Positions 36,643 to 61,481 of a DNA stretch of 64,000 bases are shown here, one piece after another. The stretch covers positions 1,550,001 to 1,614,000 of the forward strand of contig NZ_AP018738.1 in assembly GCF_000974685.2 (NCBI RefSeq). Direction: 5' to 3'. The first letter of the stretch is position 1. Each line of letters opens with the position of its first letter. The notes under the pieces were generated by a model. The model was not told the origin of the DNA. It worked only from the letters and a program-made list of their open reading frames with translations, and did not search any database. A program made the translations under genes and the position numbers. This DNA is from Ferriphaselus amnicola (lineage in GTDB: Bacteria > Pseudomonadota > Gammaproteobacteria > Burkholderiales > Gallionellaceae).

Positions 36643-37038
36643 TTACAACGCTTTGGCGTTACCTACAATCAGCGCAGCCTTCGCGTAGGTATCTTCCAGC
36701 ACGGTTTTTTCCACTGGATCATTCAAGTTGTAGTCGGCATGCACACGATTCGGCTTGAGCACTTTTCTAGCAACATAGCCAATGGACTGCGCCTTGCGCA
36801 TACGATCAGGTGTTCCGGCGAAACTTTGTGTGCAATCGATGAGACGAGAGTAAACCTGCTCATGGCTTCCCTTAATTCCCTCTCTGGCAGCAGGTAATCC
36901 CAACCTCGTCACAGCATCAAGCGCAGCGTGATAGGCCGCGTAATAAGCGCGATTCACCCCAGTCCTGAAGTCCATCTCAGTGCTACCTTGTTGCCGAATC
37001 GAATCAGCCGCATTAAGAAAATCAGTGGGCTGGATCAT
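36643..37038 (-). CDS. HEPN-domain protein, module A
   Basis: 131 residues. The NRAYYAAYHAA helix (about 29-39) and the R-x-x-ADYN motif (NRVHADYN, near 98) mark the HEPN superfamily of the COG1895-like type, in which ADY replaces the classical R-x4-6-H RNase motif. It overlaps the partner gene by 17 bp, indicating coupled translation. It is homologous to the protein at 60975 (shared FL..A....., R-T-x-x-NRAYY and ADY positions). It probably acts with the upstream helical protein in a defence or toxin-antitoxin pair; activity is inferred. Confidence 0.75.
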   Translation of the reverse strand: MIQPTDFLNAADSIRQQGSTEMDFRTGVNRAYYAAYHAALDAVTRLGLPAAREGIKGSHEQVYSRLIDCTQSFAGTPDRMRKAQSIGYVARKVLKPNRVHADYNLNDPVEKTVLEDTYAKAALIVGNAKAL

Positions 37039-37777
37039 TGGTCATAAATCCGATAAATACGCTCTGTGTAGGAGCATCTGGCAACTCAGCAAACAAGCGC
37101 TCGGTATATTCCCAATCCATCTTTGCCACGGTCGCTGCGGGTAGCGCAATAGGGATCATGATCGTCAATGTATCATCGGATTCAGCAGGCAAAACAGAGG
37201 TGTTCCTAACTACCAGAATATGATGATCACGCATCACTTTCCAAGCCAAATCAAGCATGGCATCAACAGATGCTTGGGAGATATTTCTTCTGGATAAAAT
37301 CTCACCTGCCGTATGAAAAACAGCAAATGTTCTATTGATATGCTCTGTTAATACATTGGCCACGGATAAAGTATGGGTAAACATCTCGAACATTTTAACC
37401 TGAAATAGCCCCTCAGCTAACTCAGACTTACTATCAACCGAACTTGGACATTTGAAATCGAGTCTAGATAACGCCTGCACGGCCTCAGTATAAAAACCCG
37501 CTGTACTATACGAGGCAGCCGCAAATAAAATTGACTCCTCATCCTGATATTTATTCATACAAATCAGGCAAAACCGATTCATCTCATCATGCTTGCCAGT
37601 GAGCGCATAAAACGCCGACATCAACTGATGGTAATCAACCTCATCCGCATGTTTGATGGATTCGATCTCTCTCTTGATCCGCATCATGCTGAAATCAAGA
37701 GGAACAACCATCCCGCGTTTACGAATGGCATTCATCTGCTCCAACAGATCGTTAGTTTTTGGTTGTGCTTGTATCAT
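37022..37777 (-). CDS. Helical partner of HEPN protein, module A
   Basis: 251 residues, mostly helical, with no known catalytic motif; the middle (about 50-110) has TPR-like alternation. The C-terminal third (SQASVDAMLDLAWKVMRDHH, and KMDWEYTERLFAEL) aligns residue by residue with the protein at 60197 (SDSQALSMLDIAGDVLRSRN, EMEWECIGKVME), showing common descent at low identity. It probably binds or controls its HEPN partner. The gene is in the repressor operon, so it should be expressed in lysogens. Confidence 0.7.
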   Translation of the reverse strand: MIQAQPKTNDLLEQMNAIRKRGMVVPLDFSMMRIKREIESIKHADEVDYHQLMSAFYALTGKHDEMNRFCLICMNKYQDEESILFAAASYSTAGFYTEAVQALSRLDFKCPSSVDSKSELAEGLFQVKMFEMFTHTLSVANVLTEHINRTFAVFHTAGEILSRRNISQASVDAMLDLAWKVMRDHHILVVRNTSVLPAESDDTLTIMIPIALPAATVAKMDWEYTERLFAELPDAPTQSVFIGFMTNDPAH

Positions 37778-37784
37778 TACTTCC

Positions 37785-38705
37785 CTACTTTCCCAGCAGC
37801 TTCACAAACTCACTCTCATCAATGATCGTCACGCCATTCGCCTGCGCTTGAGCTACTTTTGCGGGGCCAGCATTTGTACCTGCGCATAAATGAGTCAGGT
37901 TTTTTGTGACGTTTTTTCGCACAACCATATCGAACAGTTCAGCCTGCTCCTCTAGCTCCGCGCGGCGTTCCTTGCTAAACCCTGTAAACAGAATCTCAAT
38001 GCTCTCAGGCTTGTCCTCGATCTCATCATCTGATGACTTCCACCCACGGTTAATCACTACGCCGCCGTTTTGTGGATTCTTTCTCGCGGCCCTAGCCCAT
38101 TGCCTTGGCGATAGCAGCTCGCCCGTTTCACAATCCAGTATGTCCCCGCGCACCCGCCCAATCACAAACGTGCGCTCGTCCTTCGCCTTATGGCAAAAGC
38201 CCTCGAAATATTCATCATCGATAGACTGCACTTCAACCCTGCGGTGGCTGTGGTTTCCTTTGCCATCGAGGTAATCGAATTCGATATTGGCGAGGCAGTG
38301 TGTCTTGCTGCTGGCTATTCGCCTGAGGCTATTGATCTCGCTCTCAAGGTCTGCTTTTTGTTTATGCGGTGATGGGATTTTCTCATTGGGAGTACTCGGC
38401 TCTTGCGGCGGTTCACTCTTTACTCGGAGATCGCAAACTGATCGGTACAGCTTGACCATCCAATAACCGATGGCAACTAATACCCCGATACCCACAATTG
38501 GCGATGCTTCATAAATAGCAGCGGGGACAAATGCAAAAATTATCGCTATAAGACCAGAAACAAATCCAGCAGCATGAGCGATAACCCAATGCTTGCCCGC
38601 ACCGTATCTAATTTTTTGACTGACTACCCACCATGCAAATGGCGGTATTAAAAGGACTGATGCTAAAAGCAATACAGTTCCGCTATTGCTGATGGTTGAT
38701 GCCAT
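37785..38705 (-). CDS. Membrane protein with WYL-like and C-terminal BRCT domains
   Basis: 306 residues. Three membrane helices (about 8-90) are followed by a charged linker (about 95-125), a WYL-like sensor-type domain (about 140-205, FDYLDGKGNHSHRRVEV to FVIGRVRGDILD) and a BRCT domain (about 233-306) with the ligase-like GPAKVAQAQANGVTIIDESEF. BRCT domains bind DNA ends or phosphoproteins; a membrane-anchored BRCT protein in a prophage accessory locus is unusual. No function assigned. Confidence 0.7.
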   Translation of the reverse strand: MASTISNSGTVLLLASVLLIPPFAWWVVSQKIRYGAGKHWVIAHAAGFVSGLIAIIFAFVPAAIYEASPIVGIGVLVAIGYWMVKLYRSVCDLRVKSEPPQEPSTPNEKIPSPHKQKADLESEINSLRRIASSKTHCLANIEFDYLDGKGNHSHRRVEVQSIDDEYFEGFCHKAKDERTFVIGRVRGDILDCETGELLSPRQWARAARKNPQNGGVVINRGWKSSDDEIEDKPESIEILFTGFSKERRAELEEQAELFDMVVRKNVTKNLTHLCAGTNAGPAKVAQAQANGVTIIDESEFVKLLGK

Positions 38706-38707
38706 GA

Positions 38708-39127
38708 CTATTTAGACTCAATATCCCGAGCATCAGGAATGCTGGATGCCAGATCTTTTGCCCTTTGTTCGCTAAGGTCGCCATTTAGTTGAAGCACCAC
38801 ATTGCCTTTGACGAAAACCCATGAAAAGAATAGCGCGCTGGATTTTCCAAGTTCTCGGTAATAGTTTGCTAGACGATTTCTATCCGCCATCTTTTTGCAA
38901 AAAAAAATCCTCCCACCAGCATCGTCTCCTAGCGACAAAATAGCAAAGCGCGCGCCCTCGCAGACATAGGGTGCGGCACCGTAATTCTTGGGCGACATCA
39001 GATACTGGAATTCAATATCTGGGTCATCGAACTTCTCGATAAGTTTATCCATGCTGGGTGATGCTACAGCGCTTGACAAGGTGATGAACTGACCGACAGC
39101 AACAAGTAAAACGGTTATAAATTTCAT
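38708..39127 (-). CDS. Exported hypothetical protein
   Basis: 139 residues with a cleavable-type signal peptide (MKFITVLLVAVGQFITLSSAVA). The mature part has three cysteines and no known family. It lies 12 bp after the repressor gene and two bases before the BRCT protein gene. Likely a lysogenic-conversion periplasmic protein. Confidence 0.65.
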   Translation of the reverse strand: MKFITVLLVAVGQFITLSSAVASPSMDKLIEKFDDPDIEFQYLMSPKNYGAAPYVCEGARFAILSLGDDAGGRIFFCKKMADRNRLANYYRELGKSSALFFSWVFVKGNVVLQLNGDLSEQRAKDLASSIPDARDIESK

Positions 39128-39139
39128 GTTTGGTAATCC

Positions 39140-39481
39140 TTACCCTACTTTTTCATCGCTGCGCGATTGAGCAAGCGCAGACCCAATCGTCTTATAGGTA
39201 GCGCGCGTTTCCTCCGCCATCATCCGATAGGTGCCGACCAAGGCTTGCTCGTCGTAACTCAGATCCGACACGACCGAAGTGCTTCTAACCCCTGTGAGTA
39301 TGTACAGAACATCAGCACCTGATTCAGCAATGGCCGATAGGTAAGCCGCATCTGGTTGTCGTTTATCCTGCTCATAATTAATCTGCGCGCCCTTAAGCAC
39401 GCCACCTATCGCACCAAATTCAGTTTGATTTTTTCCAACTCTCTCGCGCTCTAGGCGCAGTCGTTCGCCAATGGTATTCAA
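39140..39481 (-). CDS. Prophage repressor, XRE/cI-type helix-turn-helix
   Basis: 113 residues from a TTG start. The N-terminal HTH (IGERLRLERERVGKNQTEFGAIGG, then INYEQDKRQPDAAYLSAIAESG) is a short XRE domain, with a helical C-terminus for dimerisation and no peptidase domain, so it is probably not RecA-cleaved. It faces the early operon; a perfect operator dyad lies in the divergent early promoter. It heads a leftward operon of six genes. Confidence 0.85.
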   Translation of the reverse strand: MNTIGERLRLERERVGKNQTEFGAIGGVLKGAQINYEQDKRQPDAAYLSAIAESGADVLYILTGVRSTSVVSDLSYDEQALVGTYRMMAEETRATYKTIGSALAQSRSDEKVG

Positions 39482-39497
39482 TTGATATAAATTCCTA

Positions 39498-39526
39498 TTG
39501 ACAGGTATTCAAACGAATACCATAAT
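39498..39526 (+). promoter_or_regulatory. Early rightward promoter with repressor operator between -35 and -10
   Basis: TTGACA (39498-39503), 17 bp, CATAAT (39521-39526). The spacer is filled by the perfect dyad GGTATTC-AAAC-GAATACC (39504-39521); another GGTATTC half-site lies at 39473-39479 at the repressor start. Repressor bound here would block RNA polymerase. Confidence 0.8.
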
Positions 39527-39558
39527 GCCCACACTCTCACTGTGATTCACATCCTAAC

Positions 39559-39780
39559 ATGAAAAAACAGCGCACCTCCTCAGCCACGCTCAGCCGCGTA
39601 CCAAACTACGGTGGAAGCAATGCGCGCATCTTGATCTCGCTGAAACCAGAAGAACGTGAAGCGCTGATCCGTCAAGCAGCGCTAGAGCAGCGCACCTTCT
39701 CCTCCATGGCGCGCATGTTCATTTTGCGTGGAATGAAGTCAGACATTCCATCAACCGATTCAGGAGACAGCCATGAGTGA
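39559..39780 (+). CDS. Small ribbon-helix-helix-like DNA-binding protein
   Basis: 73 residues, basic N-terminus, then ARILISLKPEEREALIRQAA, the strand-helix-helix pattern of RHH/Arc-type proteins. As the first gene of the early operon it may play the Cox/Apl part (lytic switch and excisionase) but with a different fold. Overlaps the next gene by 8 bp. Confidence 0.6.
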   Translation: MKKQRTSSATLSRVPNYGGSNARILISLKPEEREALIRQAALEQRTFSSMARMFILRGMKSDIPSTDSGDSHE

Positions 39781-40084
39781 TAGATATTTTCAAAGTGCAG
39801 ATGCACTTTCGATATTCACCAACGGGAACCAAGCTGACGAAGAAATCCGGCTTCTGTTCTGTAATAGGCTCATCAGCTTGGCTGATCTTGAAAGCTACCC
39901 ACGCAAGAAGCAATTCATCGAAGCGTTCTCGACAGATGGGGCAGAGGATGCGCGCCGGGCGGAGGCACTGGCTTTGGCTGATGCTTGCATCGTCCCAGCC
40001 AGCTATATCGTGTATTGCGCAGAAATGGCTAATGCCGCTTTTAACCCGTGGGCTGACCACGGCCACCAGCCTGAAATCATCTAG
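39773..40084 (+). CDS. Early hypothetical protein
   Basis: 103 residues, acidic, no motif recognised. Overlaps the RHH gene, so it is in the early operon. Confidence 0.6.
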   Translation: MSDRYFQSADALSIFTNGNQADEEIRLLFCNRLISLADLESYPRKKQFIEAFSTDGAEDARRAEALALADACIVPASYIVYCAEMANAAFNPWADHGHQPEII

Positions 40085-40093
40085 GAGACCAAC

Positions 40094-40657
40094 ATGAGTA
40101 AAGTGAGTGTAGTCATTCAATACGCCGGCCTGTCGCTGCTGGTGACCAAGAACGACACGGGTGAGGATGTCACCCCCCTCAAACCAATCAGCGATCTGTT
40201 CGGTTTGAAGTGGGAAAACCAGCGAGTAAAGGTGACTCACAACCAATTTTTCTCTAAATATTTTGGTATCTGTACCCCCCTTATGGGGGGCGCAGATGGG
40301 CAGAATCGTGAGCAAACTTGCATTCTTGTCTCCCGTGTCGCGGCCTATTTGATGACTATCAGCCCTGAGCGCGTTCGGGCGAATGGAAATGAGTCCGGCG
40401 CGAACTATCTGGAAGCCAAGCTCAACGAGTGGGCCGATGCCCTGCACGATTATGAAGAGCTTGGAATTGCCGTCAAAAAGAACAATCACAGTTCTGCCCA
40501 GCTTGAGTTGGCTCGAATCAACACATCACTCCGCCTAATCGCTGCGAAGCACCGCACCGCGTCATTGGTTGATCGGAAAAGCATTGAGTCGATGCAAGGT
40601 GTACTGGCTAAACACATCGGAATCCCCTTTCAGGCTGATCTGGTAGAACCATCCTAA
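40094..40657 (+). CDS. Phage antirepressor-like protein (P22_AR_N type)
   Basis: 187 residues. The N-terminal 120 residues follow the P22 antirepressor N-terminal pattern (VTPLKPISDLFGLKWENQRVKV, VSRVAAYLMTISPERV, LNEWADALHDYEELG). Such proteins bind and inactivate repressors, or act as early regulators. An AGGAG site precedes the ATG. Confidence 0.75.
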   Translation: MSKVSVVIQYAGLSLLVTKNDTGEDVTPLKPISDLFGLKWENQRVKVTHNQFFSKYFGICTPLMGGADGQNREQTCILVSRVAAYLMTISPERVRANGNESGANYLEAKLNEWADALHDYEELGIAVKKNNHSSAQLELARINTSLRLIAAKHRTASLVDRKSIESMQGVLAKHIGIPFQADLVEPS

Positions 40658-40703
40658 CCTTCCAGACATCAAGTCACTACGTTTGAATTTGAGGGGAACA
40701 ACT

Positions 40704-41156
40704 ATGGACGCACTGGATCTAGCGATACACGGCACCGCGCATGAGGCCAACGGTGGCCTGCCGGCACTGGCGCGGCAGATGGGCGTGGGTGAGCAGGTAT
40801 TACGCAACAAGGTCTGCCCCACCTCCGACACCCACAAGCTCAACCTGCGTGAGGCATTGGCGATGATGCTACTCACTCACGATACCCGCATCCTCGAATG
40901 CCTAGCGCGTGAGCTTGATTGCACCGTTCAGCCGAATCGCTTCCCCGGTGCGCGTGGCATCGTCGATGCGGTGCTGCATTCCGATGTTGAGCATGGTGAT
41001 GTCGCCCGCTCGGTGATGTCTGCGATCTCCGATGGCAAGCTCACTGAGGCCGAACGTGCCGAGTGCCAGGCTCAGATCGCCGAAGCGATCCAGTCACTGC
41101 AAGCCGTCGCCGACGTCGTCCACCGCTCACCTATCATGCTGAGGACAGCCCCATGA
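40704..41156 (+). CDS. CII-like phage regulatory protein
   Basis: 150 residues from the ATG at 40704 with GAGGGG upstream. The pattern (DLAIHGTAHEANGGLPALARQMG, VLRNKVCPTSDTHKLNLREALAMM) is that of the Phage_CP76/186-type CII family, a helix-turn-helix regulator that sets up lysogeny by starting repressor transcription. Its stop overlaps the next ATG. Confidence 0.85.
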   Translation: MDALDLAIHGTAHEANGGLPALARQMGVGEQVLRNKVCPTSDTHKLNLREALAMMLLTHDTRILECLARELDCTVQPNRFPGARGIVDAVLHSDVEHGDVARSVMSAISDGKLTEAERAECQAQIAEAIQSLQAVADVVHRSPIMLRTAP

Positions 41157-41281
41157 AGTCCTCACTGTTTTTTGCGACCGGCGCGCATCGCTTCCCACGA
41201 TGCGTCACGCCACTCTCTCTCCTCTGCCAGCACTCGGCTGTCGGTCGCTTTTTTATTCTGGGTGAGGCCTGTCATGGCTAA
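41153..41281 (+). CDS. Possible small peptide between CII and Ogr genes
   Basis: 42 codons (MKSSLFFATGAHRFPRCVTP) starting on the CII stop (ATGA) and ending on the Ogr-like start (ATGGCTAA). The overlaps on both sides favour translation, perhaps only to couple the two regulators. No family. Confidence 0.35.
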   Translation: MKSSLFFATGAHRFPRCVTPLSLLCQHSAVGRFFILGEACHG

Positions 41282-41549
41282 GAAGACGTACCACGCCCCC
41301 TATAGCCCCTGCCCGCACTGTGGCAATCCATTAAAGACTCGCCTTAGCCGCCAGCTTTCCGAGCTATCTCGCGAGATCACCATGCAGTGCGAGAACCCTG
41401 AGTGCCTATATTGTGCCGTGGTGATTCAGAGCCACCTGCGCGTGCTGCAAAGCAGCATGAACCCGAATCCACGGGTCTTCGTGCCACTCAGTCCTCGCAA
41501 ATATCCGCTCAACCATGATGGGCAGCTAGATCTGCTGAATAACGGTTAG
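41274..41549 (+). CDS. ogr: Ogr/Delta-like late transcription activator
   Basis: 91 residues from the ATG at 41274. CPHCGNPLKTRLSRQLSELS and CENPECLYCAVVIQSH give the C-x2-C ... C-x4-C zinc-finger spacing of P2 Ogr and P4 Delta, which activate late promoters at TGT-N12-ACA sites through RNA polymerase alpha. It probably acts on the repeated elements at 14885, 25575 and 29594. In P2 ogr lies after D; here it is in the early operon. Confidence 0.8.
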   Translation: MAKKTYHAPYSPCPHCGNPLKTRLSRQLSELSREITMQCENPECLYCAVVIQSHLRVLQSSMNPNPRVFVPLSPRKYPLNHDGQLDLLNNG

Positions 41550-41632
41550 GAGCCATGATGCAGATCCACATCGAGTTATCCACTCACCCTCCCCCCTGAT
41601 CGGGGGCGCTTAACCAAATACACCCTGCAAGT

Positions 41633-41665
41633 CACACCATAAATCGGTGTGCTGGGATTTTTTTT
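41633..41665 (+). terminator. Terminator after the early regulator operon
   Basis: CACACC (41633-41638) and GGTGTG (41646-41651), extended by flanking pairs, then eight T at 41658-41665. It separates ogr from the primase; a CCCCCCTGATCGGGGG hairpin lies just upstream. Confidence 0.65.
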
Positions 41666-41683
41666 GCCAAAAAACACAAAACC

Positions 41684-44377
41684 ATGAACCCAAGGCTGCT
41701 CAACGACATCACCCACAGGCTTGAAAACGACTACGGATTCAAGCCCGATGGCGAATACCTCCGCAAAGGCGAGTGCCCCTCATGCCATAAGCGCGAGATG
41801 TACACCAGCGCTGACGAGCCGTGGGTGATCCGCTGCGGTCGGTTGAACAAGTGCGGTGCCGAGTATCACGTTAAAGAGCTCTACCCTGAGATTTTCACCA
41901 ACTGGAGCGAGCGCCATCCGGTAACCACCGAAGAGCCACATGCCGCCGCCGATGCCTATATGCGCGATGGGCGCGGATTCGATTTGGCTAAGGTCAGCGG
42001 CTGGTACACGCAGGAGAGCTACTACAGCCCCGAGCTGAAGCTGGGGTCGGCCACCGTGCGCTTTCCACTGCCCGGCATCGGCTACTGGGAACGCATCATC
42101 GACAAGCCCGAGCGCTTCGGCAAACGCAAGGCCACCTTCCGTGGCGACTACAAGGGATGCTGGTGGTCAGCCCCCGGCCTCGATCTGGAAGCCGACGATG
42201 TCACCGAGCTATGGATCGTCGAAGGCATCTTCGACTGCATCGCCCTGCTCCACCACGGCATCACCAGCGTGAGCGCGCTGACCTGCAACAACTACCCAGC
42301 AAAGTCACTGCTCGCACTGGCTCAAGCGAGACAGGCGCTCGGACGCAAGCTACCCAAACTCGTGTGGGCGATGGATACCGGCAAGGCCGGTGAAGACTAC
42401 ACCCGCAAATTCGTCAGCCGCAGCCGCGAAGATGGCTGGGAATCCGTTGCCGCCCAGCCGCCAACCGGCAAGCTGAAGCTTGATTGGAACGAGCTACACC
42501 AGCGCAATAAGCTCGATAGCAAAATGATCGAGGAATCGCTCTATCGTGGCTCCCTGCTCACCGCCATAAGCGCTCACGAAAAAGCCCTGCTGATGTTCAA
42601 CAAAACAGCCTGGAACACAATTTATTTCGGCTTCGAGAGCAGGTTGTACTGGTTTGAGGTAAACCTAGAAAAATACGGCAAGGCTATGGAAGTACTGGTC
42701 GATTCGTTCAAAGATCTGACAGACGACGAGCGGCGCGAGCGCGCAATGATGGAGTCGCACACCCTGCGTGAGATCGCGAACTTCCTGCCGACTGCACTGT
42801 ACTTTCAGGAAAATAAGCTAACAGATGAGCAGTGGTACTTCTTCAGAGTTGACTTCCCACACAGCGGGGAATCGGTCAAGAAAGCGCTCACTCCACAGCA
42901 GGCATCAAAGTCGGTTGAGTTCAAATCCAATATTTTCTGCGCGCCAGGTGCGTACTACACGGCGAACGCAACTCAGCACGACTTCATGATGAAGCGCTGG
43001 ACGGAAGGCATCAAGGTGGTTGAGGTGCTCGACTCAGTCGGATACAGCAGCACCACGCAGTGCTATGTATTTGGTGATCTAGCCGTTAAGAACGGGAAGT
43101 TATACACGCTAAATGAAGAGGAGTACTTCGAGATAGGGAAGATGTCTATCAAGCTCAAGGCAAGAGCGGTGGAATTGAATATCAACTCGGATCTGAATCA
43201 ATTATCTCGAGACTGGATAGAACTGTTGTGGCAGTGCTATCGCTATAAGGGAATTGCAGTATTGGCATTCTGGCTTGGAAGCCTATTCGCAAAACAGATC
43301 CGCAAGAAGCACAAGTCTTTCCCTTTCCTGGAGTGCGTCGGCGAGCCGGGTTCCGGAAAGTCGACGCTGATCGAGTTCCTGTGGAGTCTGTGCGGGCGCT
43401 CTGACTACGAGGGATTCGACCCCGTGAAATCTTCGAACGCGGCGCGGGCGCGCAACTTCTCGCAGGTGTCCAATCTTCCCATTGTGCTGATGGAGGGTGA
43501 CCGCACCGAGGAAGATCGCTTCAAGCAGAGAGGATTCGACTGGGATGAGCTCAAGCCATTATTCGATGGACGAAGCGTGTACAGCCGTGGCATCAAGAAC
43601 AGCGGAAATGAAACCTATGAGCCGACGTTCGACGGCGCGCTGATTATCAGTCAGAACGCAGAGGTGAAGGCGTCTCCGGCAATGATGGAGCGCATCGTCC
43701 ATATCGAGTTCGACAAATCGTCGCATACGAATGAAACCAAGGATCTGGCCGATGCACTGCGCGATGTCTCAATGGATGATGTTTCTGGGTTCGTTCTCAA
43801 GGCGACCATGGCAGAGAAGAGCATCATGGAAACCTACATCGAGCGCCAAAAGCATTACTACCAGCATATCCGCTCTCTCAAGGGTGTACGTAATGGCCGC
43901 GTGATCCTGAATCACTCGCAACTCAGCGCATTTGTCGACTGCTTGGCCTGCATCCTACCGATCGGGAAGCGCGAGCTTGAGGAAACTCATTCATTCATCG
44001 AATACATAGCCGTTGAGCGTCAGCAGGCGCTGGAAGAAGATCACCGTATTGTCCAGGAATTCTGGGAGACCTACGAATTCCTCAATGGGAACGACGAAAC
44101 ACCGCGCCTAAACCATGCTCGAAAAGAAGAGCTGCAAATCGCAATCAACCTCAATCATTTCGTCGCTGTAGCCTCCGATTTTCGTCAGCAAATACCAGAG
44201 CTTGGCGAGCTGAAAAAGATGCTTAAGACCAGCCGCACGCACAAGTTCGTCGGCATCAAGACGGTGAACAGCGCCATCAATTCCGCCTGGAATGCACGCC
44301 GACGCAACGAAGGCGGTGATGAGAAGCCAGCCACCGTCAAGTGCTGGGTCTTTGAGAACCCGAGCCCCAAGAAATGA
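41684..44377 (+). CDS. Primase-helicase replication protein (zinc finger, toprim, SF3/DnaB-like ATPase)
   Basis: 897 residues. Zinc-finger cysteines C31, C34, C51 and C57; a toprim domain with Glu180 in LWIVEGIFDC and an AMDTGKAGEDY stretch near 230; and a C-terminal ATPase with Walker A GEPGSGKST (553-561) followed by IVLMEGDRTEEDR as Walker B region. It should prime and unwind phage DNA, like P4 alpha, replacing the rolling-circle gpA of P2. The start follows the T-tract of the terminator closely and lacks a strong ribosome site. Confidence 0.85.
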   Translation: MNPRLLNDITHRLENDYGFKPDGEYLRKGECPSCHKREMYTSADEPWVIRCGRLNKCGAEYHVKELYPEIFTNWSERHPVTTEEPHAAADAYMRDGRGFDLAKVSGWYTQESYYSPELKLGSATVRFPLPGIGYWERIIDKPERFGKRKATFRGDYKGCWWSAPGLDLEADDVTELWIVEGIFDCIALLHHGITSVSALTCNNYPAKSLLALAQARQALGRKLPKLVWAMDTGKAGEDYTRKFVSRSREDGWESVAAQPPTGKLKLDWNELHQRNKLDSKMIEESLYRGSLLTAISAHEKALLMFNKTAWNTIYFGFESRLYWFEVNLEKYGKAMEVLVDSFKDLTDDERRERAMMESHTLREIANFLPTALYFQENKLTDEQWYFFRVDFPHSGESVKKALTPQQASKSVEFKSNIFCAPGAYYTANATQHDFMMKRWTEGIKVVEVLDSVGYSSTTQCYVFGDLAVKNGKLYTLNEEEYFEIGKMSIKLKARAVELNINSDLNQLSRDWIELLWQCYRYKGIAVLAFWLGSLFAKQIRKKHKSFPFLECVGEPGSGKSTLIEFLWSLCGRSDYEGFDPVKSSNAARARNFSQVSNLPIVLMEGDRTEEDRFKQRGFDWDELKPLFDGRSVYSRGIKNSGNETYEPTFDGALIISQNAEVKASPAMMERIVHIEFDKSSHTNETKDLADALRDVSMDDVSGFVLKATMAEKSIMETYIERQKHYYQHIRSLKGVRNGRVILNHSQLSAFVDCLACILPIGKRELEETHSFIEYIAVERQQALEEDHRIVQEFWETYEFLNGNDETPRLNHARKEELQIAINLNHFVAVASDFRQQIPELGELKKMLKTSRTHKFVGIKTVNSAINSAWNARRRNEGGDEKPATVKCWVFENPSPKK

Positions 44378-44400
44378 ACCACCCACCAAAGGAGACCACC

Positions 44401-44757: not shown

Positions 44758-45005
44758 ACTGCGATTGCCTAACCGAAATAAAAGCGAAGCTGCTTGAGTA
44801 TGTTACTCGTCCAAAATATTTCAAGAAGCCCGTGAAGAGATTGGAGCTCTCGGGGATAACCATGCTTTTACAAGATAACAAGTTCGTCACCAGGACATGC
44901 TCTCAGGTAGAGGTTGAGTTGGAGGGGCAGAAGAAGAAAGAGACCTTCCCGATGGTGCATTCGTTCTGCCCGTACTGCGGGAAGAGTCAGGGAGATAAAG
45001 CATGA
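44754..45005 (+). CDS. Small zinc-ribbon-like hypothetical protein
   Basis: 83 residues with an N-terminal CDC and a C-terminal FCPYCGKS, which together could bind one zinc. Overlaps both neighbours by 4 bp. Function unknown. Confidence 0.55.
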   Translation: MNCDCLTEIKAKLLEYVTRPKYFKKPVKRLELSGITMLLQDNKFVTRTCSQVEVELEGQKKKETFPMVHSFCPYCGKSQGDKA

Positions 45006-51803: not shown

Positions 51804-51805
51804 TC

Positions 51806-52564: not shown

Positions 52565-52567
52565 ACC

Positions 52568-54640: not shown

Positions 54641-54693
54641 CGCCAACTATCGAACGGCCTGAGTGCAACTATGAAACGCAAAGGGAGTTTAGC

Positions 54694-55422
54694 ATGAAGA
54701 CGCAATTTGTAAAAAACAGCAATTGGCAGACCTTCGCCACCGCCGTGACCACGCTGGATAACCGGGGATCGAAAGAAGCCTCGATCATCCTGCTGCACGG
54801 TGAGCCGGGCACGGGTAAATCTCGCGCGGTGGATCGCTTTGGCTCGGATCGCAACGGCGTGTATCTGCAAGGGATGCCGGACATGACGGTGAGCTTCACC
54901 ACCGATTATCTGGCCGACAGGCTGTGCGTAAAAGAAGCGCGTGCTTTCGCAAAATATAACGCGATCATCAAGAGCCTGCACGAATCGCAGTCGCCGATCA
55001 TTCTGGATGAGGCGCAGCACGCCGCCATCGGCAAGGCCAAGCCACTGGAATACCTGCGCCGCGTGGCCGAACAAGCCAACGTGCTGCTGGTGCTGGTGTG
55101 CCATACCTCCGAGCGCCACCTGTTCAACGACAACCGCATGGCGCACATCAATACCCGCATCACCTCGCAGCCGAAGTTTCAACTGGCCAATGCGGCCGAC
55201 GTGGCGCACTACCTGCAGGACTTGTGCGAAGTGTCAGTGGATGACGTCATCGCCGAGCAGGTTAGAGCGCAGAGCGAAGGGCGCTACCGCCTCATTAACA
55301 ACGCCATCAAGAGTCTGGAAGCCATCGCCGCGCAGAAAGGAAAGTCGGCCTTGAGCGGGGCGGATGTGAAGGGCGTGAAGCTGTGCCAAGACGTAATGAA
55401 GCAGACTGAGGTGCGTAAATGA
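54694..55422 (+). CDS. B: Transposition activator ATPase (MuB-like)
   Basis: 242 residues of the AAA+ MuB type: Walker A HGEPGTGKS (35-43), Walker B PIILDEAQ (101-108). MuB picks target DNA, stimulates MuA and gives target immunity. It is shorter than Mu B (312), lacking most of the N-terminal domain, as in many Mu-like phages. Overlaps the next gene by 4 bp. Confidence 0.93.
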   Translation: MKTQFVKNSNWQTFATAVTTLDNRGSKEASIILLHGEPGTGKSRAVDRFGSDRNGVYLQGMPDMTVSFTTDYLADRLCVKEARAFAKYNAIIKSLHESQSPIILDEAQHAAIGKAKPLEYLRRVAEQANVLLVLVCHTSERHLFNDNRMAHINTRITSQPKFQLANAADVAHYLQDLCEVSVDDVIAEQVRAQSEGRYRLINNAIKSLEAIAAQKGKSALSGADVKGVKLCQDVMKQTEVRK

Positions 55423-55784
55423 CCAAGGGACAAACTGCCCCACGGACGGTAACCGCTGGCCTGCGCCAACGTGCCTGGTGGATCCTGCGCAATCGCAAGG
55501 AGACCACCCTGCCGCAGTTGCTCAGTACGCTGGCCGATGGCCAAGAGAAAGATGCCACCAGCAATCTGGGTAAATACCTACGGGCACTGGAGCGCGCGGG
55601 CATCGTCAGCCGTGCGGCCAAACGTGTGCCTGGAAACGATCCCACCAGCAACGGCCATATTCGCTACCTGCTTCAAATCGACTGTGGCAGCTCAGCGCCG
55701 GTATATCGCGTCAGCCAAAACGCGGTGTATGCGCCTGATACCCAAACTCTCTACCCGATGGATACGGAGGTGCGCAATGGCTGA
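55419..55784 (+). CDS. Mu-like early protein with winged-helix pattern
   Basis: 121 residues. RQRAWWILRNRKETTLPQLLSTL and GKYLRALERAGIVSRAAK look like a winged-helix DNA-binding domain. Regulatory role likely, target unknown. Confidence 0.65.
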   Translation: MTKGQTAPRTVTAGLRQRAWWILRNRKETTLPQLLSTLADGQEKDATSNLGKYLRALERAGIVSRAAKRVPGNDPTSNGHIRYLLQIDCGSSAPVYRVSQNAVYAPDTQTLYPMDTEVRNG

Positions 55785-56100
55785 TGCAGAGGTTTTGGCT
55801 TGGGCCAAGCGCTACGCCGACCAGCACAGCATCCAGAAGCTTGCGGATCTGGTGGGCTACAAGCGCACCTCCCTGTCGCTCTATCTGAGCGACAAGTATC
55901 CCGCTGACCCCAAGGGCATCGAGCTGGAGTTGCGTCGCCATATGAGCAGCCGGATGTGCCCGTATCTAGAGATTGAAATCATGGCGGACGACTGCGCCCG
56001 ACGCGCCGCACGGCCACGCCCCCATCAAAGTGGAAGCGCGATGGAAGAACACTGGATGGCATGTCAGAACTGTTCAAACAAAGGAGTGAGTCATGAGTGA
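55777..56100 (+). CDS. Mu-like early HTH protein
   Basis: 107 residues from the ATG overlapping the preceding stop by 8 bp. SIQKLADLVGYKRTSLSLYL is a helix-turn-helix; the C-terminus has C-x2-C (MACQNCSNK). Confidence 0.65.
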   Translation: MADAEVLAWAKRYADQHSIQKLADLVGYKRTSLSLYLSDKYPADPKGIELELRRHMSSRMCPYLEIEIMADDCARRAARPRPHQSGSAMEEHWMACQNCSNKGVSHE

Positions 56101-56266
56101 GAACTTCAAAACTTTACTGGGAATCGTGGCCTTTGTTGCTGTGCTGGCCTTCTTCGCCAAGATGGACTACGTCGCCGAACTGGAGACGGAAAACCAGACG
56201 CTGAAGATCAAGGCCGCCCAGTGCCAAGGCAGCAAGGTTGTGTTTGCGGAGAGCCGTGATGAATGA
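56093..56266 (+). CDS. Small single-pass membrane protein
   Basis: 57 residues: membrane helix about 7-22 and a short coiled coil (YVAELETENQTLKIKAAQ) on the outside. Overlaps its neighbours by 8 and 4 bp. Similar small coiled-coil membrane proteins are frequent in Mu-like early regions. Confidence 0.6.
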   Translation: MSENFKTLLGIVAFVAVLAFFAKMDYVAELETENQTLKIKAAQCQGSKVVFAESRDE

Positions 56267-56463
56267 GATCAGATGCCGAGCAAGAAATGTTCGAGGAACG
56301 CGCGGCCATCATGGAATTTTACGGCGGGCTGACGCGCGCCGAGGCCGAGGCGCGGGCGCGCCAAGCACTGCCACCGACCACGCCCGAACTTCCCACCGCC
56401 AAGGCCACAGCGGGCTACTTGGCCTTTAAGGAATTTTGGCATCACCAACGAAAGGAGAAATGA
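56263..56463 (+). CDS. Small Mu-like early protein
   Basis: 66 residues, with a helical EAEARARQALPP stretch. Starts on the previous stop (ATGA). No function known. Confidence 0.55.
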   Translation: MRSDAEQEMFEERAAIMEFYGGLTRAEAEARARQALPPTTPELPTAKATAGYLAFKEFWHHQRKEK

Positions 56464-56464
56464 C

Positions 56465-56977
56465 ATGCCCCCAAAAACTCGACTGAAAGCTAAAGCACAA
56501 ATCGACGTGCCACAAACCACCGCCGAAGCCGCTACCGACATCAAGCAGATCGGCGACCTCCAGCGCCAGATGCTGCGTGAGACCACCGCGATGAACGATG
56601 CCATCGCCGAGATCACCAAGCAATACCAGCCCAGGCTGGAAGAGGCTGGCAAGCAGATCGAGGATCTGCAAAAGGGTGTGCAAGCCTACTGCGAAGCGCA
56701 CCGCGAAGAGCTGTGTGGAAAAGGCAAAAGCAGCAACTTCATTACCGGCGAGGTCGGCTGGCGGCAACGCCCGCCCAGTGTACGCATCACCGGGGCGGAG
56801 GCCGTCATCGAAACGCTGTTTCGGCTAAGGCTGGGGCGCTTCGTGCGCGTCAAAAACGAAGTGGCGAAAGACCTCATCCTCAACGAGCAAGAGGCCGTCA
56901 AAGGTGTGGCGGGCATCGCCGTTGTGACTGGTGTCGAGGATTTCTTCATCGTGCCATTCGAGGTGAATGCGCAATGA
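56465..56977 (+). CDS. gam: Host-nuclease inhibitor Gam
   Basis: 170 residues. Mu Gam-type sequence: a long coiled coil (about 30-80) and GEVGWRQRPPSVRITGAEAV, then FVRVKNEVAKDLILNE. Gam binds DNA ends and blocks exonucleases; it is the Ku-related protein of Mu. Normal length. Confidence 0.92.
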   Translation: MPPKTRLKAKAQIDVPQTTAEAATDIKQIGDLQRQMLRETTAMNDAIAEITKQYQPRLEEAGKQIEDLQKGVQAYCEAHREELCGKGKSSNFITGEVGWRQRPPSVRITGAEAVIETLFRLRLGRFVRVKNEVAKDLILNEQEAVKGVAGIAVVTGVEDFFIVPFEVNAQ

Positions 56978-57117
56978 ATTTGACATGCGCCATTGTCCGG
57001 GATTATTCTGCTCCCGCTGCCCCACATGGGCAGCCGAGTGTCGCAGCTCGGAGACGTAGGCGGACGAACCGCCACCACGGCGGTATTTTTACGTTCGTCA
57101 CCTCAGCACGTTCAAGT

Positions 57118-57197
57118 TTTGGCGGGCTGTGTGGGAGGGCGCAAGCCCTGCCGGTTCCTATGTCCCGGTCTGCGAACCCGCACAGTTCCGCCTCCCC
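57118..57197 (+). ncRNA. C4-like antisense RNA candidate
   Basis: GGCGGGCTGTGTGGG (57121-57135) pairs with CCCGCACAGTTCCGCC (57178-57193); inside are the hairpins AGGGC-GCAA-GCCCT and CCGG...CCGG. The layout and bases resemble, from memory, the C4 antisense RNA of phages P1/P7 and related prophages. Upstream (57030-57100) are further G/C stems with GGCGGAC that could be its targets. Confidence 0.5.
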
Positions 57198-57246
57198 ATT
57201 TCGCAGTGGCGAGTCGGAATCTATTAACCGACATAGGAGATTCGCC

Positions 57247-57561
57247 ATGATTCTGTACACCATCACGCCCACAAAACCGGGCATTCCACCCCTACATAAA
57301 CACGGCGCTTTTGATGACATCGACGAAGCGTTAAATCGAATTCGACTGGCCGCCAGTGCGCTTTCCGGTCTGGGCAGTTTGCTAGAACCCGAGCACACCC
57401 GCGCCGACGAGCAGCTCAACATGGCGCTGCGCTCGCAGGCTTCCGCCGTGTTTGAGTTCTTCGGCCTCATCCTCACTGAAAACCGCGAGATCGCCGTCGA
57501 GGCGGTAAGTCGTCTGCATTTCGACATCGAACATTCAATTCAAGGAGATCAACCATGCTAA
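57247..57561 (+). CDS. Phage hypothetical protein after the C4-like RNA
   Basis: 104 residues from the ATG at 57247 with AGGAG. Helical. Overlaps the next gene by 7 bp. No family recognised; C4-type RNAs often control an adjacent antirepressor gene, so this could be the controlled gene. Confidence 0.55.
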   Translation: MILYTITPTKPGIPPLHKHGAFDDIDEALNRIRLAASALSGLGSLLEPEHTRADEQLNMALRSQASAVFEFFGLILTENREIAVEAVSRLHFDIEHSIQGDQPC

Positions 57562-58118
57562 TCAAAATCACCCTGAGTGGCGTTTCTCCACTGATCTGCA
57601 ACCGATTCACCGAGGCCGCTCAACAGAAGGTTTCTGCCGGAACTACGGTAGCCATTCGCGGTGCGCAAGGCATGCCGCGCGAGCAGGCCGAACCCAAGCT
57701 GTATCTGGATGCGAACAGCAAACCCTGCATTCCCAGCCCGAACCTGATGCGCGCCATCGTTGACGCGGGCACGTTCATCAAATCGGGCAAATCAAAACTT
57801 TCCACCCAGCGCACTAGTCTGGTTCCGGCAGGCATCTCCATTGTGGAGCCAGAGCTACCCATTACGCCGAGCAAGTGGGAGGTGGATAGCCGCTCCGTGG
57901 TCATTCCCGCCACGGGTGGGCGCGTGATGGCGCACCGCCCGCGCTTCGATGAATGGCGCCTCTCGCTCACGCTAGATGTCGATACCGACATGTTTGACGA
58001 AGGTGTTGCCCGTCAACTGGTGGACTTAGCCGGACAGCGCATCGGGCTGGGTGACTTCCGCCCGGCTCGGCGCGGGCCATTCGGACGGTTCCGGGTGGAT
58101 TCTTGGAAAAAGATTTAA
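57555..58118 (+). CDS. Mu-like hypothetical protein
   Basis: 187 residues with an N-terminal LIKITLSGVSPLICNRF and Gly-rich C-terminus (GLGDFRPARRGPFGRF). I do not recognise the family with certainty. Confidence 0.55.
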   Translation: MLIKITLSGVSPLICNRFTEAAQQKVSAGTTVAIRGAQGMPREQAEPKLYLDANSKPCIPSPNLMRAIVDAGTFIKSGKSKLSTQRTSLVPAGISIVEPELPITPSKWEVDSRSVVIPATGGRVMAHRPRFDEWRLSLTLDVDTDMFDEGVARQLVDLAGQRIGLGDFRPARRGPFGRFRVDSWKKI

Positions 58119-58386
58119 GAGTTGAGCGCCTGAGTGTCTAGAGCACCCGAGCGCCAAAACAGCAAAGCGATGCGAAGTGTCGCAATGCAATGCGAGGTGC
58201 GGTATAGCCTTGCAAGGAAAAGCAAACCAAGGGTAGCGAAACCCGGCGCAAGCCGGGTCTGCGGAGTGTGACGGCTCCGCACTGATGAGCAGTCAATCGT
58301 CAATGAGGCATTGCGCGGCCATGCATGGCCAGGCATCGCGCAGCAAGGCTAGGTGCGGCAAACCAAGGGATTTAATAGAGGACATC
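58119..58386. other. Structured leader upstream of gemA and mor
   Basis: 268 bases without a gene. Hairpins: ACCCGGC-GCAA-GCCGGGT (58241-58258), GCGGAG...CTCCGC (58261-58280) and the palindrome GGCCATGCATGGCC (58317-58330), plus repeated GCGATGCGAAG-like strings near 58165-58200. It may be a structured RNA or attenuator. Confidence 0.5.
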
Positions 58387-58833
58387 ATGGGACGACACTA
58401 TCCAAAAGCAACTGATCTTCGCAACCGTGAGCTGGCCTTGATTCATTTGGCCAAGCGTGATCTTTGTCTGTCTGATGATGAATACCGGGCGCTGTTGTGG
58501 AGTGTGGCGCGGGTGAATTCCAGTGCCGATCTGGATTGGCGTGGTCGCAAACTGGTGCTCGACCACTTCTTGAGTTGCGGTTTCAAGGTACAGCGCGCCC
58601 AGCAGCCCGGCCAAACCCACAAGTCACTCGCCGCCGACAAAGCCGCCATCGAACGCAAGATCGGCGCGCAGCTCAAGGCGCTGGACGCAGGCTGGCCGTA
58701 TGCCTACGCCGTGTCTAAACGGCAGTTTCCTGACGTTGCGCGGTTTGAGTTTTTAACTGCCGAGCAGCTCGGCAAGGTAGCCAGCGCCCTAGAGCGCACC
58801 ATTAAATCGCGTCAAACCAAGGCCGCACAATGA
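58387..58833 (+). CDS. gemA: GemA-like protein (Mu gp16 family)
   Basis: 148 residues from the ATG at 58387. RELALIHLAKRDLCLSDDEYRALLWSV and the C-terminal ARFEFLTAEQLGKVASALE are characteristic of DUF1018/GemA. In Mu it changes host gene expression and DNA supercoiling. Overlaps mor by 4 bp. Confidence 0.9.
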   Translation: MGRHYPKATDLRNRELALIHLAKRDLCLSDDEYRALLWSVARVNSSADLDWRGRKLVLDHFLSCGFKVQRAQQPGQTHKSLAADKAAIERKIGAQLKALDAGWPYAYAVSKRQFPDVARFEFLTAEQLGKVASALERTIKSRQTKAAQ

Positions 58834-59219
58834 CCGGCCTTACGCACGCCGATCTGCACTTGCTCCCGCCCAATATGCAATGGGTAGCACGGGTCATCGG
58901 CCTGCCCGCCACGATCAAGTTGGCCAAGGCGCATGGTGGGAGGTTTGTCTATGTCCCCAAGCACGTCAGCCAGGATCACCCCTTGTGTCACCTGATCGGG
59001 GCACAGGCCTTTGCAGCACTGGTGACGGAATACGGCGGAGAGCGCCTCGATGTCGCCAAGTGCGACCGTGCCGCTCAAGCCCTGCGCAATCAGCTCATCC
59101 GCGAAAAACGCCGCGAGGCCTCACAGTCAGACGTGGCCGGTCAGTTTGGCCTAACCGTGCGCCGAGTGAGAGATATAGAGAAGGATATAGTGGAAGATAG
59201 GCAGATTGGGTTGTTCTAA
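58830..59219 (+). CDS. mor: Mor family transcription activator
   Basis: 129 residues of the Mor/C family: GGRFVYVPKHVSQDHPLCHLIG mid-protein and a C-terminal HTH (QSDVAGQFGLTVRRVRDIEKDI). Mor switches on middle transcription in Mu. The genes it should control are not visible next to it. Its stop overlaps the stop of the convergent HEPN gene. Confidence 0.9.
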   Translation: MTGLTHADLHLLPPNMQWVARVIGLPATIKLAKAHGGRFVYVPKHVSQDHPLCHLIGAQAFAALVTEYGGERLDVAKCDRAAQALRNQLIREKRREASQSDVAGQFGLTVRRVRDIEKDIVEDRQIGLF

Positions 59220-59887
59220 ATCGTCCTTCTTCTCCAAGGACTGTTCCCAGTGGAGTTTCCTTGAATGAAGTCAGCCATCCCATTATCTGTGTCGATAACA
59301 AACCTGAGAATCTGATCACGATAGGTAGTGAGCGTATTGATTTGAATATAGCCTGCATCTCTTCCTCGATGAGCTATATCCCCCCTGACAGTCACGAACT
59401 CATTCAAAGCAGTCGCCCCCAGAGTCCATGATTCGGAGATGTCTTCAACTCCAGATAGCCGTTTGAATAATGGGACTAAAATAGTGCTCTTGGGGGTATT
59501 GATAGACTGTGTTGTTTGGATGCAGTGGTTTTCATACACCATTTTCCATCCGTCCCCAGCAAGTTCAAGTGGCTTTAGTTCATGTTTGGACTCTCGTACA
59601 ACTTTTGAAATTTCCCGTTGGACATGCTCAGGCAGTTGATCAGGGCTTGTAGCTCTTGTGCAAAGGACTCTAGCAGTTTCAACAAGCAGTTCCTCAACAT
59701 ACAGCTCCCATGCTGCGCACAGCATTACCACACCACTTCGAGTAATATGACCCAGACCTCTACGCCCAAGCCCATCGTGGTTAAGAGCATTGTGACTTTC
59801 GATGATTCGATCAACATCATCAAGCATCGAGTTTTCAAATTTGCTAAGCGCTGAAGAGGGCATAGAATCCTTTCTAAATGAGTGCAT
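59216..59887 (-). CDS. HEPN-domain protein, RiboL-PSP-HEPN type
   Basis: 223 residues. MLCAAWELYVEELLVETARVL near the centre and TVRGDIAHRGRD near 175 give the R-x4-H motif (R-G-D-I-A-H) of HEPN ribonucleases of the MAE_28990/RiboL-PSP type, which are linked to defence and RNA cleavage. It is read against the Mu-like early operon and the stops overlap, so it belongs to the accessory segment. The start could also be the ATG at 59863. Confidence 0.75.
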   Translation of the reverse strand: MHSFRKDSMPSSALSKFENSMLDDVDRIIESHNALNHDGLGRRGLGHITRSGVVMLCAAWELYVEELLVETARVLCTRATSPDQLPEHVQREISKVVRESKHELKPLELAGDGWKMVYENHCIQTTQSINTPKSTILVPLFKRLSGVEDISESWTLGATALNEFVTVRGDIAHRGRDAGYIQINTLTTYRDQILRFVIDTDNGMADFIQGNSTGNSPWRRRTI

Positions 59888-60196
59888 GTGACAAGCTTAT
59901 CTAACCCCAGCCCACTCTAGGCTTAAACATCACAATGAGTCAATATGGCCAATAGCTTAGCCGAAGAGAAATGGATATAGGCCGAATGGCATATTGAGCA
60001 TAGATTGCTGTTGTGTGATTATGTCGAGGTGTTGGTCGTCTTGGTGGCCGCCTACGCTGTAGCCTTAGGCGGCTGAAGGTATGAGGATGTGCTGTGTTAT
60101 TTTTGCACGGCTAGTATTCTAGGCCACTCATGCTGATGTAAACTGCGAAAAAGTCAGTGAAACTGTAAATTCACGCTCATAGAATAATCATAGTTA
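59888..60196. other. Intergenic region with hairpin and repeat
   Basis: 309 bases without a gene. GCCGCCTA...TAGGCGGC near 60048-60074 forms an 8-bp stem. The 22-bp direct repeat copy at 59973-59994 lies here. The promoter for the helical/HEPN pair is expected at the right end. Confidence 0.6.
59973..59994 (+). repeat. 22-bp repeat, left copy
   Basis: GGATATAGGCCGAATGGCAT and two more bases; matches 61804-61825 with one mismatch. The pair brackets module B. Confidence 0.75.
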
Positions 60197-60982
60197 ATGC
60201 CTGCTCCCCAACTAGACACTGCTTCATTGTTTTATGACCTCAACAGGTTTCGAATTGAGGGGCGACTCTTGACCGATCAATCTGTAATCTCTAAATACGA
60301 GAGGTCAATTGAAGCTATTAAGGCGGGCAAGAACTGTCAGCCCGCCTCGTCGCAGGAGGTTGCATCCTACTATGTCATTCTCGCTTCGCTACGTTGTTTA
60401 ACTGCCGATTTCGGACAGGTAGTCACGCTAGGGGAAAAGGCGCTGAATATGACCCAAGATCCTTATCTCGTTTATAACCAATCTGTAACACTATCTATTT
60501 CCGGTTATTTTTCAAAGGCTAGAGCTACTTTGGATAAAGTGAGTGAGTACGACCTTGCTTCGCTTAGTTTAACGGAAGATGATGGTGTGCGAATTACCTC
60601 GATTCTTCAGGATACAATATCCTTGGACAGGGATGTACTGTCAGATGACAGGGTTCGAGATAGGTTTTCGTATGATGTTGATCGAATTTTGGAGATGCGA
60701 GAAATCCTCTCTGACCTTGGGATAAGTGATTCACAGGCGCTGTCGATGCTTGATATTGCCGGTGATGTACTACGTAGCAGGAATACTTTCCTTGCGCATG
60801 ATTTGTACATTCATACTAATTCCATAGAACGGTATCTTTCTATCAGTTTGCCAGTTTCACTTTCTGCGAGCGAAATCGCAGAAATGGAGTGGGAGTGTAT
60901 TGGCAAGGTAATGGAACAGTATCCTGAGGTTCCATACTCTTCGTTCAATATTGGCTTTACGAGTGCAAACGCTCATGGCTAA
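60197..60982 (+). CDS. Helical partner of HEPN protein, module B
   Basis: 261 residues, helical, no known catalytic motif; TPR-like alternation about 55-120. C-terminal third homologous to the protein at 37022: SMLDIAGDVLRSRN, AEMEWECIGKVMEQ and a closing NIGF match MLDLAWKVMRDHH, AKMDWEYTERLFAE and FIGF. Its stop overlaps the HEPN gene start by 8 bp. Confidence 0.7.
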   Translation: MPAPQLDTASLFYDLNRFRIEGRLLTDQSVISKYERSIEAIKAGKNCQPASSQEVASYYVILASLRCLTADFGQVVTLGEKALNMTQDPYLVYNQSVTLSISGYFSKARATLDKVSEYDLASLSLTEDDGVRITSILQDTISLDRDVLSDDRVRDRFSYDVDRILEMREILSDLGISDSQALSMLDIAGDVLRSRNTFLAHDLYIHTNSIERYLSISLPVSLSASEIAEMEWECIGKVMEQYPEVPYSSFNIGFTSANAHG

Positions 60983-61481
60983 TTGCGCTCAAGATTTCCT
61001 TACCCTTGCCTGCGAGATGCAGGTAAGCGCCACAAACGAAATTGGTATGCGAACAGCGGCGAATAGAGCCTATTATTCTGTATACCACAATGCAAAAAAT
61101 ATAAAGAATTTAGTTAATCTTCCGGATTCGCAGGGTGCTGGTGGGGTTCATGCCAAGCTCTTCCGCTCACTTGAAGAGTGTAAGCCTAGACACTCAAGCA
61201 TGCAGACAGAAATTAGGCAAGTGGGAATCTTCGCAACACGGCAACTTAAGACGCTTAGGACGGATGCAGACTACGATATTGATATAACCTTTGATAAGGT
61301 CAAAATGGATGAGACTATTGCAAAATCACAGTTGCTAATGGGAAAAATCTCTACCATTCTAAGCCAGCACAAACTGCCGAGCCCATCACCAACAACTGAG
61401 GATGAACCTTTGAGTACTGATAAACCCGAGATAGGGGCTCCGGTTCCGCGATCTCGGTTTCATCTCCGTGCGGTTAAATGA
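60975..61481 (+). CDS. HEPN-domain protein, module B
   Basis: 168 residues from the ATG at 60975 (MANCAQDFLTLACEM), chosen because it overlaps the partner stop as ATGGCTAA and aligns with the module A start. RTAANRAYYSVYHNA and LRTDADYDID are the HEPN marks. The C-terminal 35 residues are a Pro/Ser-rich tail absent from module A. A terminator follows within 10 bp. Confidence 0.75.
   Translation: MANCAQDFLTLACEMQVSATNEIGMRTAANRAYYSVYHNAKNIKNLVNLPDSQGAGGVHAKLFRSLEECKPRHSSMQTEIRQVGIFATRQLKTLRTDADYDIDITFDKVKMDETIAKSQLLMGKISTILSQHKLPSPSPTTEDEPLSTDKPEIGAPVPRSRFHLRAVK

Follow-up and report, generated by a model that had tools for sequence, protein, structure and literature searches.

What does a pair of overlapping genes do that is present twice, in diverged form, in one bacterial genome? 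This question is raised by a 64,000-nucleotide stretch of Ferriphaselus amnicola DNA (the window; bases 1,550,001-1,614,000 of the complete 2.7 Mb genome, contig NZ_AP018738.1), in which a gene for a helical protein is followed at two places, each in a prophage-like region, by a gene for a HEPN protein. In copy A, on the minus strand, Partner-A (37022-37777, 251 amino acids (aa)), composed of a TPR-like solenoid and a C-terminal alpha/beta domain (CTD), shares 17 bp with HEPN-A (36643-37038, 131 aa, HEPN-T type); in copy B, on the plus strand, Partner-B (60197-60982, 261 aa, helices between residues 8 and 173, then the CTD) shares 8 bp with HEPN-B (60975-61481, 168 aa, five helices up to residue 132). 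A first-pass annotation had proposed that these are two versions of one module, and the four open reading frames (ORFs), their overlaps and the quoted motifs are indeed present: MLDLAWKVMR/MLDIAGDVLR, KMDWE/EMEWE and FIGF/NIGF in the partners, NRAYYAAYH/NRAYYSVYH and RVHADYN/RTDADYD in the HEPN proteins.

The likeness is more than one of layout. In BLASTP the two HEPNs share 31% identity over 121 columns (E 1e-19) and the two partners 24% over 262 columns, almost their whole length (E 7e-16); both window HEPNs also match PHROG 5176, a family of unknown function (E 4e-21 and 4e-20). Because of these matches it was concluded that the two-gene unit is truly homologous between the copies, the helical partners included, as the annotation had supposed; a search of the complete genome with HEPN-A returned just HEPN-A and HEPN-B at E<=1. 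On balance we lean, by a modest degree, towards the interpretation that the unit is a mobile two-gene toxin or abortive-infection device, in which a HEPN-T ribonuclease (RNase) would be held by the CTD of its partner and gated by a TPR sensor.

The AlphaFold2 model of HEPN-B (pLDDT 90.5, without predicted structure past residue 132) has 2hsb as its best solved counterpart (Z 14.5, rmsd 2.5, 116 aligned; the next reached 11.8), and a HEPN profile matched 9xbd/9xbc and 2hsb in the PDB. The window HEPNs share with the HEPN-T/UPF0332 proteins (PF05168; 2hsb, AF0298; 9xbd) the fold, an Asp in place of the motif His, an upstream His and an R..ADY-type motif, but neither PF05168 nor any other Pfam family matches them even at E<=5, and their partner is not a nucleotidyltransferase. 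The relatives L034, L069 and L094 do match PF05168, below its cutoff. The HEPN is a divergent HEPN-T/UPF0332-like protein and, by score, not a member of PF05168; a BFVD search with it gave nothing at E<0.001.

Conserved residues of the family are R26, H59, R95, D99 and Y100 (HEPN-B numbering). H59, R95, D99 and Y100 were each present in all 18 rows obtained independently of the scan pattern, in 45, 45, 44 and 44 of 45 pattern-scanned rows, in 24-25 of 25 rows with another or no partner, and in all 14 rows paired with a nucleotidyltransferase (MNT); R31, Y33, Y34 and H38 belong to the scan pattern, therefore their invariance is not evidence. The usual Rx4-6H is missing from the window HEPNs, where D99 replaces the motif His and H59 is an alternative conserved His; an alternative His site was proposed for the HEPN-T/AbiV variant by Anantharaman et al. 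(PMC3710099, in its available text). Since the classical motif is lacking, RNase activity is plausible, not certain. Y100 is retained in 87/88 HEPN rows without MNT, so accepting AMP is unlikely to be its sole role. In the alignment, a Y-to-F change in the RxxxDY motif sets 9xbc apart from 9xbd, which hints that the depositors regard that tyrosine as functional; no paper on 9xbd/9xbc was found in our literature search. In six close pairs, which fall into three clusters, dN/dS ranged from 0.08 to 0.42 for the partner as well as for the HEPN (one more pair was saturated); partner and HEPN are thus both maintained, under purifying selection, in those six pairs.

In a tree of 102 HEPN rows a branch with SH-aLRT 99% separates the MNT-paired rows from all others, the exceptions being L019 and L073, which sit on the MNT side without an MNT label. 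The labels combine results of hidden Markov models (HMMs) with reading by eye (no strong HMM score stands behind the label CTD of L027, L056 and L067 or the label TPR of L013), and with few columns the deeper forks are unsure. HEPN-A, HEPN-B and the HEPN of Parazoarcus communis (L034), the nearest relative of both window copies, form one set (SH-aLRT 96%). HEPN-A is closer to L034 than to HEPN-B, which bears out the old divergence of the two copies that had been suggested. The L034 module recurs on the IMG/VR viral contig L116, with a 100% identical HEPN.

The partner consists of two parts. In the AlphaFold2 model of Partner-B (pLDDT 87.6, pTM 0.87) an N-terminal TPR solenoid is followed by a CTD with an alpha-beta-beta-alpha-beta order (helix 178-194, strands 204-208 and 213-220, helix 224-241, strand 250-256). 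Profile comparison identifies the N-terminal half as TPR, the best match being an engineered TPR array (E 7e-77) and the best natural one OGT (E 6e-30); the structure search with the Partner-B model returned mostly TPR and other helical-repeat proteins, with a best Z of 9.0 that lies within the repeat background. Among 30 partners NCBIfam gave TPR-type models only, each in up to 3 members, plus chance matches, and its MamA model matched Partner-A with E 0.004. A BFVD search with the partner found two metagenomic siphophage proteins (E 8e-6 and 2e-5). We take the partner to be a binding protein rather than an enzyme, since the 30-row alignment has 0 invariant columns and the MNT motif GSx10DxD occurs in 0/30 partners. 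The CTD as a decayed MNT was considered and ruled out by the absence of the motif and by a CTD-MNT profile probability of 0.5% (hhalign).

The CTD is the constant part beside the HEPN gene. Its HMM gave 47 matches at E<1e-3 among the 6,758 ORFs of 80 loci, counting the tandem second modules of L068 and L111, and all 47 stand directly upstream of a HEPN ORF or overlap its start. They include 17 loci outside the training alignment, three of which (L041, L047, L064) are almost duplicates of loci used in training; the loci had been chosen by their HEPN, therefore the CTD is specific in place within them, which does not speak for its absence elsewhere. The TPR part can be missing: remnants were sought in three forward frames of the 1.3 kb upstream, and a CTD match without a TPR-region match was observed in L014, L015, L043, L048, L068, L070, L097 and L109. 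The half-length partners L050, L053 and L063 have a weak TPR remnant (E about 1e-4) and were not counted as CTD-only, and the short partners of L040, L085, L105 and L106 resemble broken full-length genes. In Planctomycetes, Acidobacteria and further groups (L069, L052, L071, L094, L104), related HEPNs are preceded by other short proteins, which may be remote CTD forms; the small partners of Planctomycete-type HEPNs align collinearly with the CTD, but at a profile probability of only 31%, and a second set reached 0.7%.

How widely does the pair occur? By tblastn against 50,697 phage records the HEPN of Pseudomonas phage PG1 matched 22, HEPN-B 9 and the Vibrio HEPN 5, in overlapping sets; tblastn against plasmids gave 5 and 2 matches. 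A partner of about 250 aa lies directly upstream of the HEPN in 10 of the 12 phage records examined (L004-L007, L021-L025, L031). The first partner HMM was built from L004-L007, so that just the other six are independent of it, and among these L022, L024 and L031 are near-identical Vieuvirus copies; in the phage record L026 an unrelated-looking ORF of 89 aa stands in the upstream position. Among the plasmids examined 3 of 4 have the partner directly upstream, the fourth carrying a 201 aa protein without an HMM match there, and one plasmid carrier is a mobilizable element of 10 kb. For bacterial genomes a HEPN-pattern scan of GTDB gave 588 pattern matches and 90 relatives, of which the best 80 were used with a partner HMM built from 15 window, phage, plasmid and genome sequences. 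An adjacent upstream partner (E<1e-6) was present at 30/80 of these HEPN-anchored loci, or 29/79 held out, L036 being the same contig as the training member L011. In 26 of the 30 the two genes overlap, in 20 by exactly 1 or 4 bases; at many of the remaining 50 loci the upstream protein is an MNT, a short one or an unrelated one. In L068, L111 and L150 the module is doubled in tandem, with partner and HEPN each present twice. The expectation that the pair recurs elsewhere, often in phages, was thus borne out by the held-out loci, the phage records and the plasmids.

HEPN-B matched in 2 of 60 related genomes, one of them the window's own, and PHROG 5176 in 9 of 369 genomes of the class, the own genome included. 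From IMG/VR the PG1 HEPN retrieved two loci and the L034 HEPN one; scans there with P0001-P0004 returned no relatives, and tblastn of P0002 and P0001 against the phage records returned none.

Carriers of the module are phages, plasmids, a provirus and chromosomes. In Klebsiella ST405-OXA48phi1.3, Pseudomonas PG1, the Acinetobacter Vieuvirus phages, a faecal phage and L115 a tape measure gene is its immediate neighbour or is separated from it by one or two small genes, an adjacency noted case by case. Between PG1 and L115, with HEPNs 69% identical, the module changes sides of that gene, and its place is a different one in copy A of the window, Vibrio phage PE001, Klebsiella Chronis and Pseudomonas R656. 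The claim that the system is carried by phages holds for the phages and the provirus and is too narrow for the rest, since plasmids and surroundings of housekeeping genes were found as well.

On this basis the following course of events may be envisaged. The upstream partner would be made first, bind the HEPN through its CTD and keep it inactive; the HEPN would be the effector, a HEPN-T-type ribonuclease with a site formed from H59, R95, D99 and Y100; and the N-terminal TPR solenoid would serve as a variable sensor. Binding of a cue from an infecting phage by the TPR part, at a guess a tail or other structural protein, would release the hold, and the freed HEPN would cut RNA, so that growth stops before phage release. 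The CTD-type partner would thus stand in the place of the AMP-transferring MNT antitoxin. We infer such a CTD-held, TPR-gated RNase in abortive infection from the genomic context and from Tha, a prophage HEPN defence for which a tail-protein trigger was shown (PMC11087260, in its available text).

Several observations weigh against this reading. The usual Rx4-6H is missing, and the putative binding of CTD to HEPN is suggested by gene order only. Yersinia phage YP3 (L003) has the HEPN without a partner in cis, and of the 8 foreign PHROG 5176 loci there is one clear full partner (L011) and a weak one (L013, E 0.0037), L014 and L015 being CTD-only, L016 having another protein, L017 an MNT, and L018 and L019 no obvious partner. 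The neighbours at 28 genome loci are mixed, phage and housekeeping: PHROG matches were to repressors, portal, terminase and tape measure, and Pfam matches to metabolic genes. The neighbour scan covered 127 of 145 ORFs at 28 of 29 loci (L053 was left out, others were dropped for size) and the top 25 families per library; PADLOC matched few of the 127, with PDC-S03 in 2 and RmrA/RmrT, a type II methyltransferase, RtcR and RTasSbcB in 1 each (best 25 of 31 families).

The partner also occurs by itself. Its profile was run on 398 genomes of the phylum and 29 foreign loci were returned, 7 with an adjacent HEPN and 22 without a HEPN nearby, which is not what a strict pair predicts. These 22, from seven families of the same phylum and not of the window's class, include 18 with a CTD match at E<1e-3, in two of which (L140, L144) the sequence stops no more than 160 bp past the partner, so that a HEPN could be cut off; in 19 stand-alone loci inspected, a related downstream ORF was common to L125 and L127 only. 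In some families outside the window's class, then, the partner is found apart from any adjacent HEPN. G656, G489, G750 and G593, four further full-length matches picked by hand from a much longer list, all have a HEPN directly downstream, G593 with partner-HEPN twice in tandem. The window's own genome has 4 partner-profile matches, two of them the two modules. The figure of 239/398 genomes with a partner match was rejected as a measure of prevalence, many of the listed matches covering only the TPR part.

Three side observations belong to these loci. Several partner-profile matches per genome occur in seven families (L118-L146), a possible stand-alone TPR-CTD family. The HEPN of YP3 (3371-4348 of L003) is preceded by a small virion gene that is duplicated almost identically. 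At 150-1842 of L016 a protein that we take to be TIGR04255-like, a 173 aa protein and a HEPN-T stand in one row, possibly a three-gene relative.

Could the pair be a plain toxin-antitoxin addiction unit, in which a HEPN toxin and a non-enzymatic antitoxin stabilise a mobile element and no phage is sensed? The plasmid carriers, the 10 kb mobilizable one among them, the tandem copies and the tight, mostly overlapping genes with the regulator first all fit this, but a solenoid of 250 aa is large for an antitoxin, many copies are phage-borne, and a TPR part that can go while the CTD stays agrees better with an input domain; we consider this explanation unlikely, though it deserves to be kept in mind. 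It is very improbable in our view that the pair serves counter-defence or regulation by RNA binding through a HEPN without catalytic activity: Rx4-6H is degenerate, and some degenerate HEPNs are thought to work by binding (PMC3710099, in its available text), but the alternative residues are almost invariant, unlike those of a decayed site. The position beside the tape measure gene in several phage lineages would suit a late-function or morphogenesis pair, such as a tail assembly chaperone or late RNA processing. This we regard as the least probable of all, since the module is rare among phage records, is found on plasmids and chromosomes too, takes other positions in copy A, PE001, Chronis and R656, and lies on opposite sides of the tape measure gene in PG1 and L115.

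Is the device already known under another name? The four window proteins match no system model of Pfam, PADLOC 2.0 or NCBIfam 20 (PADLOC HEPN_IX reached E 0.016 with HEPN-B), and NCBIfam on 41 HEPN relatives gave one chance match only (E 0.008), which agrees with the earlier statement that no described system with this partner is known. AbiV and HepS of Gifsy-1 are HEPN folds linked to phage defence that matched the HEPN-B model with Z 7.3 each, within the helical-bundle background; no sequence match to them was seen, and the window HEPNs match no Pfam family. AbiV carries the same alternative His, and the LA2681 HEPN family is listed with TPR fusions, with TPR in the operon and with Rx4-6H (PMC3710099); the window HEPNs lack that motif and match no Pfam family, the distinction being drawn from the available description of LA2681 only. 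HEPN-MNT (HepT/MntA), called type VII toxin-antitoxin in the available text of PMC11586414, likewise has two genes with the regulator before the HEPN, but the module partners are without the MNT motif, and Rx4HxY is replaced by RxxADY in the module HEPNs; the MNT-paired HEPN-T rows of our own set also lack Rx4HxY.

Tha/Ith of staphylococcal prophages is, like the window module, a prophage-borne HEPN effector. Tha is a single protein, some 301 residues long, whose C-terminal HEPN has R265/H270 and whose inhibitor gene, ith, is antisense, whereas the window HEPNs have 131-168 aa without the motif His; a TPR partner is not mentioned for Tha in the available text (PMC11087260). DefensePredictor counts 4 HEPN systems (PMC13092281), and 6 of 21 systems have HEPN in PMC9519451, the available text of neither saying which. 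Gene pairs with a HEPN are an established kind, and LA2681 HEPNs accompanied by TPR have been recorded, but the TPR-CTD/HEPN-T pairing looks undescribed; no description of it was found in the searchable papers, with figures, supplements and subscription papers outside reach.

The surroundings of the two copies are as follows. Copy A is flanked by a tail gene (35042-36385, PHROG 52), which we take to be gene D of P2, and by a repressor-like gene (39140-39481); the minus-strand order is repressor, 139 aa protein, BRCT-domain protein, partner, HEPN. The BRCT-domain protein (37785-38705, minus strand), directly upstream of Partner-A, has hydrophobic N-terminal stretches and a C-terminal BRCT domain, and matches the PADLOC candidate PDC-S48 (E 8e-9). 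The genes before copy B match PHROG transposase, DNA transposition protein and late transcriptional activator, presumably Mu A, B and Mor, and by our reading form a Mu-like early region; the label of an accessory segment, given earlier to the place of copy B, needs adjusting accordingly. About 310 bp from module B, in divergent orientation, lies a third HEPN of the RiboL-PSP type (59216-59887, minus strand; PF18735, E 3e-17). Starting 5 bp past the HEPN-B stop, a 13-pair stem (61486-61514, reported by the scan on the minus strand; 7 G-C, 3-base loop) is a possible terminator closing module B, the stem count being not above chance (1 found, shuffle mean 1.2); promoter scans did not exceed the shuffles either. 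Module B is followed by a YejK/NA37 nucleoid-associated protein (61890-62927, plus strand; PF04245), which scores 111 bits against the nucleoid-associated anti-phage model NF053868 of NCBIfam, below its cutoff of 330; DefensePredictor validated a YejK domain as active in defence (PMC13092281, in its available text). Further on are a 383 aa ORF, an IS21-like gene pair and a tyrosine integrase, the last ones named by eye.

A wider history may be sketched, tentatively and with considerable doubt. HEPN-T toxins may have swapped MNT for a binding-only CTD, which gained a phage-reading TPR sensor, possibly for tail components; phages would trade the module, a widespread mobile immune unit on this view, from one unrelated genome to another at places next to the tape measure gene, and the sensor half would have been freed as a stand-alone protein in several families. 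HEPN effectors are common in phage defence, and how they are held and released differs from one to another. If our interpretation is true, a non-enzymatic modular regulator, with a constant CTD and an optional TPR part, would be added to the HEPN-T toxins, and MNT, CTD-only and TPR-CTD partners would form a natural series for studying antitoxin replacement; in the phages of Acinetobacter, Klebsiella, Pseudomonas and Vibrio the module would be a candidate superinfection-exclusion cassette.

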